This document shows, one piece after another, positions 29,693-63,418 of a stretch of DNA of 64,000 bases (the first letter of the stretch is position 1; each line of letters opens with the position of its first letter). Under the pieces are notes generated by a model. It ran no database searches. It was not told where the DNA came from and saw only the letters and a program-made list of their open reading frames with translations. This DNA comes from Candidatus Didemnitutus mandela. Lineage in GTDB: Bacteria > Verrucomicrobiota > Verrucomicrobiia > Opitutales > Opitutaceae. The stretch lies in the NCBI GenBank assembly GCA_002591725.1, contig NJAL01000002.1, positions 310,001 through 374,000 of the forward strand, in the 5' to 3' direction. A program made the position numbers and the translations under genes.

Positions 29693-29994
29693 GGGCCTAT
29701 AGCTCAACCGGTTAGAGCAGAGGACTTTTACGGGTCGGCGCAGGGGAAACGCTGCGCTAGTCAGGTGTAAACTCGGCGAACGGCCTGCCTATAGAGGCGA
29801 CCCAACACCGAGCCAAGACCGGGCATTCGCTCAGTAAGGTGTAGAGACCATAATCACCCGCCTCTACTTCCGTCTTGGAGGAGCATGGCGAAGGCATGGT
29901 CCAGACCACGAACACCCCTCTAGAGGTGGCGGCGAAAGCCGAAGTGGTAGGCATAATCCTTTGGTTCTGGGTTCGAATCCCAGTAGGCCCACCA
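29693..29994 (+). tRNA. tRNA-Ile2 (CAU), interrupted by a group I intron
   Basis: Exons are 29693-29726 and 29952-29994. Joined, they give a 77-nt tRNA with a perfect 7-bp acceptor stem (GGGCCUA/UAGGCCC), D arm, a 5-bp anticodon stem, loop CUCAUAA, a T arm with GUUCGAAUC and an encoded CCA end. The anticodon CAU could serve Met or Ile. The G1-C72 pair rules out initiator tRNA. The C4-G69 and C5-G68 pairs with A37/A38 match the known determinants for lysidine formation by TilS, favouring the AUA-reading isoleucine tRNA. The intron lies between U33 and C34, so without splicing the cell would lack its decoder of AUA codons if this is the only copy. Splicing is inferred from structure. Confidence 0.9.
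29727..29951 (+). ncRNA. Group I intron (IC3-like, Azoarcus tRNA-Ile type)
   Basis: 225-nt self-splicing intron without an open reading frame for a homing endonuclease. P1 pairs exon GACU (29723-29726) with GGUC (29733-29736), giving the required U-G wobble at the 5' splice site. P3 is GGUG 29764-29767 with CACC 29855-29858. P4 is CUCGG 29772-29776 with CCGAG 29808-29812. P7 is GACCA 29846-29850 with UGGUC 29897-29901. P8 is CCUC 29861-29864 with GAGG 29878-29881. The intron ends in the obligatory G at 29951. The segments GAGCCAAGAC and AAGGUGUAGAGAC closely follow the Azoarcus tRNA-Ile(CAU) intron as I remember it, with a compensatory change in P7. Autocatalytic splicing with guanosine cofactor is expected. 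Confidence 0.88.
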
Positions 29995-31823: not shown

Positions 31824-32183
31824 GGGGGTGCTCCGGATTCGACCCCTGGTTGGAGTGCGCAGCTGCCTTTCGAGGATGATGGTTGGCCTCGTTAATCACC
31901 CCATTAAAAAACAATAGGCAACTATGAAGAGATGCCATTGGCCGCCTAATGTAAGGTAGGCCTCGTTCTTTCTATAACTCCTGCTAATGGAAAAGAGCGT
32001 CGACAGCAGGAATAGCGCGCCGGGTCGTGACGACATGCGCGCCGTAGCTTTCAAACCGTCGCTGGCTGACGGACGCGCGTGTAGCTTCACGCGCCGTTAG
32101 CGAGACTAAAAAAGCTTCTACAAAGGTAGATGCGGCGCGCAAAGGCTCGGGGCACAGGGGTTCAACTCCCCTCACCTCCACCA
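31824..32183 (+). ncRNA. ssrA: Transfer-messenger RNA
   Basis: 360-nt tmRNA that rescues ribosomes stalled on broken messages. The 5' end GGGGGUG pairs with CACCUCC at 32173-32179 (one G-U pair), followed by an encoded ACCA. The 5' tRNA-like half has the typical CUCCGGAUUCGAC of the D-loop region, and the 3' end carries a T arm with GGUUCAACUCCCC. The mRNA-like part follows the GGUUGGCCUCGU segment seen in many tmRNAs. It ends in the tag frame 31917-31949, and the pseudoknot-rich part follows. All elements expected of a one-piece tmRNA are present. smpB is not in the window. Confidence 0.92.
31917..31949 (+). other. tmRNA proteolysis-tag reading frame
   Basis: Codons GGC to TAA encode the peptide G-N-Y-E-E-M-P-L-A-A. 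The Leu-Ala-Ala end is the usual recognition tail for ClpXP-type proteases. An A-rich run and an AATA stretch precede it, as at the resume point of other tmRNAs. GGC as resume codon is inferred; GCN is more common. Confidence 0.8.
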
Positions 32184-39867: not shown

Positions 39868-41925
39868 AGCCCGTAGTCCGCGTCAAAAGAAGAAAACTGT
39901 AATCGCGTGACGCTGCAAAACCATCGGGCAAGTTCGTCAAATTCAGTGTTTCTTCGCGAGCGCTCGCTGGCCAAATTTTCTTTTTATCCCGTCCGAAGGT
40001 TCCGGCCTCAACCGCCTTGACGACTTTCCCGTATGTCTGAACGATTCCCAATGCGTTTCCTTCTATCGTAGCTTGATGTCAATATATAAGCGCTCGAAAG
40101 CCTCACTTCCAGCGCTCGCTCGATCTCGTAAAGAAGCAATGGGCTGGTAGAAGGACCAGTTGGTGCAGATACTGGAGCCGAAAAACAGAAAAGAAACAAT
40201 CCGCCGCGTCACAATACGCTGAGTATACCTCCTCGCATAGCCCCTGCAGCCAGTCTGCAAGTCCGTTTTGATTTCGCCTCAGTGAGTTTCGAGTTTTAGG
40301 AGCCGAATTCGAAAAGGTTCGTTTTTTTTCGTTTACTTAGCTCGCGAGCCACCGCTCCTTCCGATTCTTCAACAAAAGCGTCAGCGACTTCGCTAACCAA
40401 TAGTTGAGACGTTCGGGATTGTCGTAGCTATGTAAAAAAATGTAAATTAGAAAATTGGGTGCAACTAGATGCAATCGCTCATATAAAGTTATTACTAAAA
40501 AATGGGATTGCTGCATGAAGCTGCCCAGGACCACGGACCACCCGCTTGCCGAGTACTCGTATAGTTTTATACGAAATTTTCGCGCACGAAGACGTGCGAA
40601 CTTGCTCTGCCGAGAGAGCTTCCGCCAGGAGAAGACAAAAAGAAAAAGGAAAATGCCGTTGGTTTGTTCTATACGAACCTAACCCAGTCGCTGGTTCAGA
40701 ATAAAGGATATTATTATCCCACAACAAGATCTGCAACTTCTCCGATAGCAAGTCACACATTCCTCAAACTTCAACGCCACTCAGCCAGCTGTATTGGGTT
40801 GGACAAATTCCACTGGTCTCCAACGCACAGCGGGAAAGCATTTCGGCCCAGCGAAAGCGATTCATCCAGGTTTTCCGAGCCCAATCCTACCAAAAATCCC
40901 ACACCAGAAAAGCCTGCGACACCGCTTGGAACGGTTTCCGATCCGGAGCAACATATATTCATCCTCGGAAGAAAAAACCCGTCCACCAGGCAGCTGCAAA
41001 CGATCACGCGCCGCCCAGCTTATTACCTGCGCTACATTCGAGAAAAATAAACCGCCAACCATTTTGCGAAACGTTTTCAAAAAACACGGAACAGTCACCG
41101 CGGATAGACCCAATCGGACGCAACCTGGAAGAGAACTCGCTCGAATTTTAGCTCGTAGACCAAGTTCCAAGACAGCAAACTCTGCATCGACGCATGTACG
41201 TCGGCCAAGTTCGCCATAGCTTCTCCATCCCTCCAGCTTCGCTGAAATAACCACGTTCGCTTTCTCTCGGCCCGACTGGCGAGCTTTCCGGAACTCATGG
41301 CAGTGAGTTCTCCGGAGTCGTAAGGTAATAATATAAGAGCAAGACGCCAACAGATTCGGACCATCAAGCGGAGCTTCTTGGACTGAACCTGGATAATGAT
41401 TTCACGTTTTCCCGTTTCCGCCACCAAATAGTGTTCATCGCGCCACACCTAAAAAACTCCACAAACGCTATCGTGAACCATCGCAGCCGTCTCGGCTCTA
41501 TAGCGTCCACCGAAGATTCACTTTCAGTTTTGTGCGGGCTCTGTTGGCCTCGGTCCCGGCCGCACTTCTATCTGTACTTCCTAGTGGCAGTTTCTTTATC
41601 CATTATAGTAAGTTTCTTACTCTGCGCACGCCCGACGCCAACGTCCGATCCATTTTCAACCGAAAAAAACGTCCTCTATACAGCACCGCAAACCCCAGCC
41701 GCACGCAAAGAGCCTCCGGAAGCAACACGCTGGGCATGTCACAAGTATAGTCAGGGTATGGGCTAGAGAGCAGTGTCTATGGGTTGGTTTTCGCCACTAT
41801 AGATTCGACAAAAATCACGAAGCAGGAAGGAGCAGCTATCTGACGGCTGTCACAGGGCGGTTGAAAACATCCTCCAGATTCCCGCAACTGCAATCGTCTG
41901 AAACTGGCTCCTTGTGGAAAGCATT
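39868..41925. other. Gene-free region between purC and ctaG
   Basis: No intact gene. Reverse-strand remnants near 39940-40160 run up to purC and may be a lost upstream neighbour. A proline-rich forward remnant lies at about 40800-41220, reading in two frames with FSEPNPTKNPTPEKP near 40875-40920. I cannot name either. Confidence 0.45.
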
Positions 41926-60945: not shown

Positions 60946-61310
60946 TGGCGATGCGTTTGCGCGCCGCACAACGCCTGCGACGCAACGCCGATTTTCGCGC
61001 TACACGCGAACAAGGTTACTGGCATGACAGCAGGGCTTTTTTGTTGGTCTGGCGCCAGTCTCACACCACATCCACCCGCGTGGGTGTCGTTGCTTCGTGT
61101 GCCTCGATCGGCAATGCCGTGCGGCGCGTACGCGCCAAGCGGCTCCTGCGTGAATTGTTTCGCCAGCACCAAGCTCTCGTGCCCACGGGAGTCGATGTTG
61201 TGCTAACCGCCCGTCCCACCCTGTTACAGCTGGAGTTTGCAGAACTAGAAACGCTTTTCGCCGCTTCTTGCCGCAAGTTTGCGGCTCACGACCACCGATG
61301 TCTGAGCTAG
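60945..61310 (+). CDS. rnpA: Ribonuclease P protein component
   Basis: 121 aa; binds the catalytic RNase P RNA and helps it mature tRNA 5' ends. Features: basic [15 protein letters not shown] (first helix and strand), a central [20 protein letters not shown] carrying the family RNR-like signature, [14 protein letters not shown], then VDVVLTARP. It follows rpmH with the start overlapping the stop (ATGA type), and overlaps the next gene by 13 bases. Conserved residues for RNA and leader binding are present. The catalytic RNA is not seen in this window. Confidence 0.93.
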
Positions 61311-61627
61311 TTTTTACCAAGTCTGCTTCGCTGCTAACACGCTCGCTCAGATCGTTAGTTTTTGTCTATCAAAAAACTGTCTCGCCCGCGCTTCGGGTTG
61401 CAGCGCCAACACTCGGCTGCCGTTTCGAACCATCCTGTTCCAACTACGCCGCCGAAGCCCTGCGCAAACAGGGAGCGCTTGCCGGGCTCGCACTAATCGT
61501 CCGCCGCCTTTTGAAATGCGGTCCCTGGCACCCTGGTGGCTATGATCCGGTTCCAAAGAGGCTTTCCATTTGTATCAAATCGGTTTTATTACACCGATCC
61601 TGGCCTGTCTGCAGCTTCCTTCCGCCC
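61298..61627 (+). CDS. yidD: YidD-like membrane protein insertion factor, reading frame open into yidC
   Basis: Start ATG at 61298 overlaps rnpA by 13 bases. Residues 1-80 are a clear Yid[19 protein letters not shown], then [19 protein letters not shown] (the YidD hallmark CRFxPTCSxYxxEA) and [16 protein letters not shown]. YidD is a small membrane-surface protein aiding YidC-dependent insertion. After GGYDPVPKR there is no stop: the frame continues about 25 codons straight into the yidC ATG at 61628, making a possible 706-aa fusion over 61298-63418. Either the stop was lost, or translation gives both a fusion and a free YidC from its own ATG. I give it as an open partial for that reason. Confidence 0.75.
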
Positions 61628-63418
61628 ATGGATAAAAAAAACACCTTTATCGGAATCGCCCTCCTTGCCGCCTCCGGCATTTTATACTTTAGTACTCGAG
61701 ACGCCCCGCAACCGCCTCCAAAAACCCCGGAAACTGCCAAAACGGCCAGCACGATTCCCTTATCGAGTTCAGTCCGTTCCGAGATCGATTCGAACCTGAA
61801 AGCCCCGACCTCGCCCGCAGCTAACCAGCAGAAAGTCCGTTACGTCACGCTAAAAAACTCTTTTATCGCCGTGCGCTTCACCACCGCCAGCGGCGCCATC
61901 GACCGCATCGCGCTAAAGCAGCACCGCGCCAGGATCGACGGAGATGATCCCTATATCATCAACTCGCCGCACGCCACGCCCGCGCTGAGCTTCGTGGACC
62001 TCCCCGGCCTCGACGAAAACGCACGTTATGAGATCGTCTCGCAAAGCGCGACCGAGGTCACCTTCCGTTCCACGCTCGACAATCGCCTAGAGGTTACTCG
62101 CCACTACCAGCTCGGATCTGCCACCGGCGGCGACGATTATCAGGTGAACCATAAAACGACGTTTCGCAATCTCTCAGCCCAAGTCTTTCCGATGCCTCGC
62201 CTTCGTGTAAGCCTCGGCACCATTTCACCACCCTTCCCGAACGACACTGGCATCTACCTCAACGTCGGCTATTACAACGGGAATAAGACCGAGTTTATCC
62301 AGCGCGACGCACTAGCCGGCGGCGGTCTCTTCTCCAAGAGCAATCCACTACCATACATTAAGAAGACGTCCATCGTGGAATGGGCTTCAGTGAAAAACCA
62401 ATTTTTCACCACCATCCTCTCGCCTGACCAAGCCGGAAGCGGTGTTCACATTGAGCGGGTAAAAATCAATCCGCTCCTGCCCGACACTAATCGCTCTTCG
62501 TTTGGCATCACCGGTTCCGTGTTTTTCGATCTCGCTCCGATACCAGCCAACGGCATAAACACTTGGGAAGCAGGTTTTTTTGCCGGGCCGAAGGAATACC
62601 GCCGGCTCTCGAATTCCGACAACTTCCACCATAAAGAGGAAAAGATCATGGAGTTCGGCGCCTCGTTCTTCAATAAAATTTTCCTTTCCGGCTTCTTCGC
62701 CCCGCTGCTGCTCACGATCATGACGTGGGTACACTCGTGGATACCAAACTGGGGACTCGCCATCGTAGTGATGACGCTGTTGCTCAAGTTCGCCACGCTA
62801 CCCTTTACGCTCGCCGCCTCCCGCTCCACCAAGCGAATGCAAAAAGTCACTCCGCTCTTAGGTGAGGTGCGAGAGAAATACAAAAACAGCCCCGCTAAGC
62901 AACAACAAGCAATTGTGAAGCTCTACAAGGAAAACAAAGTCAACCCGCTCGGCGGCTGTCTTCCAATCTTTGTCACAATTCCGCTCTTCATCGGCTTCTT
63001 CAGCATATTGCAAAGCGCGGTCGACCTCCGTTTCGCCAATTTCCTCTGGGTGAAGGATCTCGCCGCCCCCGATACCGTGATCTCCTTCGGCACGCACACG
63101 CTTCCGCTGCTCGGTCTCACCCACCTTACCCTTAACATCCTCCCCCTTCTTCTCGGAGCGACGATGATTTTTCAGACCAGAGTCACGCCCACGCCCGCCA
63201 CAGACTCCACACAAGGCACCATGATGAAAGTTATGCCACTGATGTATGTTGCTTTCTGCTACAACTTCGCCTCGGCTCTTTCTCTCTACTCGACTATCAA
63301 TGGCCTCTTTACAATCGCCCAGCAACTTGTGATCAACCGCCTTCCGGAGCCAAAGCTTACCTCGAGGTCTTTCGCTGGCAGCACGATCAAAAACGTCACA
63401 TCTCAAAAAAAGAAATAA
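61628..63418 (+). CDS. yidC: Membrane protein insertase YidC/Oxa1
   Basis: 596 aa from the ATG at 61628. It inserts inner-membrane proteins with or without SecYEG. N-terminal helix [15 protein letters not shown], then a Pro/Thr-rich linker and the periplasmic P1 domain (about residues 60-330) typical of Gram-negative YidC with [20 protein letters not shown]. The conserved Oxa1 core starts near residue 350 ([20 protein letters not shown], a Gram-negative signature), with the cytoplasmic [19 protein letters not shown] and [19 protein letters not shown] loops carrying the expected Arg/Lys residues, and four further helices. In frame with yidD upstream. A hairpin follows at 63433. Order rpmH-rnpA-yidD-yidC is the standard cluster. 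Confidence 0.94.

Follow-up and report, generated by a model that had tools for sequence, protein, structure and literature searches.

The interrupted tRNA-Ile2(CAU) gene and its genome

The window, by which we mean the whole stretch of 64,000 nucleotides analysed here, comes from an assembly of Candidatus Didemnitutus mandela of 2,171,216 bases in 10 contigs. The published figures, as given in an excerpt of the genome paper, are 2.17 Mbp, 10 contigs, an N50 of 319.6 kbp and 51.93% GC (PMC5698493); GC in the window is 0.465-0.536. At 29693-29994 of the forward strand lies a gene for tRNA-Ile2(CAU), 302 nt in length, in which a 225-nt group I intron (29727-29951, forward strand) separates U33 from C34. 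The 5′ exon (29693-29726) terminates in GGACU, the last base being U33, and the 3′ exon (29952-29994) starts with CAUAAUCC and includes an encoded CCA; both are on the forward strand. The joined exons fold as a tRNA, a 77-nt cloverleaf in which ARAGORN reads the anticodon CAU. This tRNA is neither an elongator Met nor an initiator, and the genome encodes TilS (155.9 bits, in an open frame); lysidine is accordingly predicted at position 34. It has the pairs C4-G69 and C5-G68, which we take to be the same as the Ile2 determinant of E. coli, and the acceptor pair U6-A67.

With its intron search turned off, ARAGORN called no tRNA at 29693-29994. With the search on, it returned the 302-nt gene and its 225-nt intron as tRNA-Lys(ttt), a wrong label because it was taken from the first three bases of the intron. 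Annotators should be warned that such genes are overlooked in the first mode and are labelled Lys, Glu, Ser, Leu, Met or Stop in the second, often from the first intron bases, and that a genome can therefore seem to be without tRNA-Ile2. Three other features of the window were recorded. A tmRNA (31824-32183, forward strand; 134.8 bits; tag GNYEEMPLAA) lies 1.8 kb downstream of the split tRNA. An 88-base ARAGORN call resembling tRNA-Arg(ccg) (40912-40999, reverse strand) is absent from the 44 Rfam tRNA matches described below; a second tRNA-Arg(ccg) of the genome lies at locus L038, and the call in the window is probably false or a relic. YidD and YidC are usually encoded by separate genes. An open frame of 716 amino acids (61268-63418, forward strand) holds a YidD domain (27-95) and a YidC domain (193-691) together, perhaps because two genes fused, a stop was lost or the assembly is wrong.

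Genome-wide, Rfam matched 44 other tRNAs, one of them a tRNA-Glu in the window, and every one of the 20 amino acids is represented. The anticodon CAU occurs in two of them, one assigned by eye as elongator Met (L034) and the other as initiator-like (L043); neither resembles tRNA-Ile2, no other tRNA-Ile2 was found among the 44, and no tRNA-Ile with a UAU anticodon was seen. A pattern for uninterrupted tRNA-Ile2 that allowed up to three mismatches had no match in the whole assembly. The second, uninterrupted tRNA-Ile2(CAU) gene that the original prediction had considered was thus found in the assembly neither among the Rfam tRNAs nor by pattern. The assembly is incomplete, 74.5% by our computation and 94.2% in an excerpt of the publication (PMC5698493), so that a second copy may have been missed. 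The words "tRNA" and "intron" do not occur in the main text of that paper. AUA makes up 32 of 5352 codons in 14 open reading frames of the window, nine of which were run against Pfam, with matches for eight.

Structure and identity of the intron

Twelve helices were drawn on the window sequence and then counted over 14 aligned introns (59 pairs, 807 cells). Of these cells 97.8% are paired, compared with 87.9% in shuffled alignments and 24.8-44.1% when the structure was slid along the sequence; since the structure was taken from one row, this count is biased in its favour. Double changes, which are less subject to that bias, occur in 23 of the 59 pairs against 12.7 in shuffles, and none of 500 shuffles reached any of the measured values.

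All helices lie on the forward strand. P1 (29723-29736) joins the exon end GACU (29723-29726) to the guide GGUC (29733-29736), with a U.G pair at the splice site, and is paired and invariant in all 14 rows. It is followed by P2 (29738-29757), a hairpin with a GAAA loop and double changes in each of its seven pairs. P3 (29764-29767/29855-29858) is invariant in the 14 rows; with P4, P6, P7 and P8 it makes up the core, which contains a pseudoknot. P4 (29772-29778/29806-29812) encloses P5 (29782-29789/29796-29802), the two spanning 29772-29812, and P6 (29813-29814/29838-29839, invariant) encloses P6a (29818-29823/29830-29835, double changes in six of six pairs) within 29813-29839. P7 (29844-29850/29897-29902), which by analogy would be the guanosine-binding helix, shows a C-G/U-A double change in four of the 14 rows, and P8 (29859-29862/29887-29890, within 29859-29890) a G-C/A-U double change in five. 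The P9 region (29905-29948) has a closing stem (29905-29909/29944-29948), a hairpin with double changes in all four pairs (29913-29916/29925-29928), and a second hairpin with a GAAA loop (29930-29941). The intron ends in G at 29951, the 3′ splice site, as do all 30 type-A (window-type) cores, which were themselves excised with the terminal-G rule. Being invariant in the 14 rows, P1, P3 and P6 lend no support from covariation. One C.A mismatch is present in P6a of the window. A further C.A, in P4 (29777/29807), is peculiar to the window, the other 29 cores having U.G or C-G there.

The original prediction had listed P1 with its U-G pair, P3, P4, P7, P8 and the terminal G, and all of these hold. 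Its compensatory change in P7 is likewise borne out: proteobacterial introns have GACUA/UAGUC where the window has GACCA/UGGUC. The variable pair also changes within the window's own clade, being C-G in 23 of 30 introns and U-A in seven.

The proposed check with Infernal and the Rfam group I model (RF00028) gave no hit: there was no match in the window at the gathering threshold or at E values up to 5, and none in the whole genome. A control set of ten introns puts this result in context. The model matched all three proteobacterial CAU-tRNA introns (58.5, 57.1 and 56.0 bits), a cyanobacterial tRNA-Leu intron (48.9 bits) and two Opitutaceae introns inserted at 36/37 (46.9 and 30.3 bits). Of four window-type introns, three had no match and one, L008, scored 23.7 bits (E 0.038). 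The model is thus insensitive to the window's subfamily, and the miss is no refutation; a reading of it as evidence against group I identity was dropped after this control. What the window fails to reach is a curated score, which is not a defining structural trait. Doubt that one alignment such as RF00028 covers group I diversity is also voiced in an excerpt of the literature (PMC6125680).

Homology was detected with a model, R1, built from 16 proteobacterial 36/37 introns (15 betaproteobacterial by name, one "Proteobacteria") and no Verrucomicrobia. Its best match in the whole genome was 29767-29912, with 44.3 bits against 9.4 bits for the runner-up; the E value was 1.1e-10 genome-wide and 3.2e-12 for the window alone, such values from custom models being rough. 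The R1 match, the covarying helices and the coordinates, which proved exact, confirm the predicted group I intron in the anticodon loop of tRNA-Ile2(CAU). It is small, lies in an anticodon loop, is homologous to the tRNA introns of Proteobacteria and Cyanobacteria and has no P5abc; we take it to belong to subgroup IC3, a label assigned from these traits and without an IC3 reference model.

Distribution and relatives

When the gene was compared by BLAST with 57 genomes, the window's own included, seven more full-length interrupted genes were found (L002-L008, 76-83% identity), and 11 of 12 further loci that were read proved to hold uninterrupted CAU tRNAs (L009-L020, L015 excepted). A second model, R2, was made from 13 of the relatives' introns, the window being excluded. 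Under strict filters that lose weak matches it matched nine of 387 genomes of the phylum, six strongly (167-182 bits, the window scoring 167.4), all of them Opitutaceae, and three at 40-46 bits. Among 252 Opitutaceae genomes 41 were matched, 30 with at least 137 bits and 11 at 39-54 bits. Insertion at U33|C34 fits 28 of the 30 strong matches (the window included) by ARAGORN together with the U.G and terminal-G rule; of the two read by eye, L207 fits as well, and L208 (G592), near a contig end, has the altered exon end GGCCU. Ten of the 11 weaker matches are inserted at CAU|AA, between 36 and 37, and the eleventh, L237, had no fitting split in the ARAGORN reading but matched the 36/37 pattern. 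Opitutaceae therefore have two introns, each interrupting the anticodon loop of this tRNA at its own point. In a tree of 154 cores the 30 window-type introns form one clade (support 100/99) and the Opitutaceae 36/37 introns a separate one (100/100). The window's intron is shared by ancestry within the family and is not peculiar to the symbiont.

An uninterrupted CAU tRNA was found by pattern in six of the 30 carriers and not in the other 24; in one of the six (G318) it had two mismatches and is perhaps not an Ile2. By the same pattern, none was found in 12 of the 17 carriers whose completeness is 90% or more and whose contamination does not exceed 5%. The expectation that an intron in an essential decoder would be unusual in a shrinking genome survives only in part: no uninterrupted copy was found beside it in the assembly, but its retention is not special, since 30 of 252 genomes of the family share it, 24 of these 30 without an uninterrupted copy. 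Synteny led nowhere as a tracer of gain and loss: matches to the window were confined to the gene or its edge, and few relatives share flanks among themselves. In relatives, 3′ halves of tRNA-Ile2 with no matching 5′ half were seen at L015, L066 and L069, and a piece resembling the intron's 3′ end in G031 (L067); these may be scars left by an integration event or damaged copies.

Named genomes, scanned by pattern, gave at least 118 stretches; 119 matches were scanned, 18 of them without a tRNA. The classes among the matches listed were CAU|AA at 36/37, tRNA-Leu at 34/35, tRNA-Arg(CCU) at 36/37, 33/34, and a few without a single split. The 33/34 site was seen in tRNA-Ile2 at no fewer than nine loci, all in Verrucomicrobiota and three of them on contigs already counted, and in tRNA-fMet at four or more, from Ca. 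Taylorbacteria, Ca. Kaiserbacteria and two further bacteria. Genes like tRNA-fMet(CAU) with a group I intron at U33|C34 were located at L123 (6166-6448), L139 (6624-6908), L169 (4321-4642) and L171 (1791-2106). Proteobacterial CAU-tRNA introns lay at CAU|AA, 36/37, among the matches listed, and at least 32 with that pattern were extracted. A CAU-tRNA intron at 36/37 like that of Limnohabitans was also found on a contig of an Akkermansia muciniphila MAG (L246, G621; L076, 1368-1647), where it came either by transfer or through contamination of the bin.

In 146 cyanobacterial genomes R2 matched 30, and the 29 new loci that were read comprised nine tRNA-fMet, 12 tRNA-Leu and eight tRNA-Arg genes. 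Read from the sequences, all nine tRNA-fMet introns are at U33|C34; four of them are 624-655 nt long and so, judging from length alone, could hold a protein. The highest R2 scores outside Opitutaceae belong to tRNA-Leu introns, one cyanobacterial (L240, 99.8 bits) and one from Bdellovibrionales (L241, 95.1 bits). Those of tRNA-fMet introns are 74-92 bits, below both, and R2 scores therefore do not single out tRNA-fMet. L241 (872-1200 of G620:C11), in a tRNA-Leu(UAA), shares nearly the whole P9 sequence with the window type and is a possible link between the 34/35 and 33/34 introns. Genomes G616 and G618, both with a 33/34 tRNA-fMet intron, gave a second R2 match each, L248 at 34.2 bits and L249 at 31.4 bits; these lie in other tRNAs, for which ARAGORN reported introns 223 and 556 nt long. 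The tree tentatively places the window's clade among tRNA-Leu and tRNA-fMet introns, with a sister support of 23/0 (154 cores; long branches and an unsettled bootstrap). A single clade of all 33/34 introns is absent from the free tree and scores 23.6 log units lower, a difference at which the AU test does not reject it (p 0.188).

The class of intron is already known. Excerpts of the literature record group I introns in tRNA-Ile2 of Acidovorax and Burkholderia (PMC8450103), name that of the Azoarcus pre-tRNA-Ile (PMC3984707) and mention introns in tRNA-fMet of Cyanobacteria (PMC8450103; PMC5733544). The betaproteobacterial introns of Azoarcus, Acidovorax and Burkholderia (IC3) have the same host tRNA according to one of these excerpts (PMC8450103). 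Their core, as the R1 match indicates, is homologous to that of the window, they are of similar size, and both kinds are without an endonuclease. They are, however, separate in the tree, and are inserted after U36 (CAU|AA, 36/37) with the guide GUG, whereas the window has U33|C34 and the guide GGUC. In the Azoarcus tRNA-Ile, too, the site is 36/37. The original suggestion that the insertion site differs from that of other tRNA-Ile introns was therefore correct with respect to the proteobacterial CAU-tRNA introns. The tRNA-fMet(CAU) introns of Cyanobacteria and Patescibacteria share the U33|C34 site, the loop CUCAUAA and a homologous core with the window, but their host is the initiator tRNA and their guide fits GGCU. 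The tRNA-Leu introns also have a homologous core, with a cut one base further on, the guide GAG and a different tRNA. The Opitutaceae 36/37 intron has the tRNA and the bacterial family in common with that of the window, but another site, a clade of its own and R2 scores of 39-54 bits. The 33/34 site is thus not new for bacterial tRNAs. Among the matches listed in a literature search it was not found in tRNA-Ile2, nor were such introns found in Verrucomicrobia, Opitutaceae or this symbiont, and as far as was searched the site is new for tRNA-Ile2. The twist in site and host is a modest one.

Proposed splicing and what it would mean

All 28 type-A introns with the exon end GACU have GGUC before the core. 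The tRNA-fMet introns, which have the exon end GGCU at the same site, have GGUC in none of 13 cases and GGC in 13 of 13; as 27 of these 28 type-A introns have GGC too, only the GGUC contrast discriminates. A guide that changes with the exon across two hosts is, as judged from these sequences, the best comparative support for the predicted P1.

Group I introns splice by two transesterifications, and this scheme can be applied to the window. The exon end GACU would pair with the guide GGUC, the U33.G pair marking the cut. A guanosine docked in P7 would attack after U33, and the freed U33 would then attack after the terminal G, which would release the intron and leave U33 and C34 joined within the loop CUCAUAA. 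TilS would turn C34 into lysidine, and the tRNA would then read AUA as isoleucine. Because TilS acts on the restored loop, splicing should precede modification. We consider it very probable that the group I intron at 33/34 of tRNA-Ile2(CAU) self-splices to yield an AUA-reading tRNA.

Several other readings must be weighed against self-splicing. The intron might depend on a protein in the cell and not be self-splicing in the strict sense, as a P3 of merely four pairs and the C.A in P4 could suggest; the Azoarcus tRNA-Ile intron is a strong self-splicer, and at 225 nt the window's intron is too small to encode a protein of its own, which makes this alternative rather unlikely. We regard it as considerably less probable that decay of this gene has set in within the symbiont: its intron would splice inefficiently or fail to splice, and AUA would be read poorly or by an undetected copy. 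The C.A mismatches in P4 and P6a would agree with decay, as would the long end branch of the intron in the core tree (0.26 against a median of 0.083 for all rows), the incomplete assembly and the heavy gene loss described in an excerpt of the genome paper (PMC5698493). Yet at the 87 columns that do not vary among the other 29 cores the window has a single private change, relatives losing 0 to 3, and near-complete retention of these columns despite the long branch suggests that selection maintains function while the genome decays. AUA codons are used in the window's open reading frames, TilS is retained, the pattern search detected no uninterrupted tRNA-Ile2 copy in the assembly, and the acceptor pair is U6-A67 where seven aligned relatives have U.G.

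A splice shifted by one base would give the loop CUUAUAA, hence a tRNA-Ile(UAU) with no need of lysidine, and the first base of the intron is indeed U, so that the shifted joint keeps a seven-base loop. For such a shift the intron would have to end in C, with the cut displaced from the U.G pair; in five of 30 introns (L193, L196, L201, L210 and L207) the first base is C, where the same shift would restore CAU, and TilS is present in the genome. This outcome is highly improbable. Scarcely any credence can be given to a mobile fragment or chance inverted repeats in place of an intron. The failure of RF00028 would be in keeping with such an origin, but 29 other Opitutaceae genomes carry the insertion at the identical base, and this, the covarying structure and the R1 match oppose it; on these grounds other types of insertion and chance repeats were ruled out.

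One tRNA with two introns, each at its own site, and one site occupied in two tRNAs with matched guides provide a test bed for target change in group I introns. A tentative reading, which we hold to be doubtful as a whole, is that one intron lineage specific to the CUCAUAA loop moved between tRNA-fMet (in Cyanobacteria and Patescibacteria) and tRNA-Ile2 (in Opitutaceae) by way of one guide pair (G-C to A-U, position 31), and that in about one tenth of Opitutaceae, among them the reduced symbiont, AUA is decoded entirely by way of a ribozyme, without an uninterrupted gene in reserve. If its intron splices as proposed, Candidatus Didemnitutus mandela, with a genome that has lost much else, would rely on a ribozyme for AUA decoding and hence for much of its protein synthesis.
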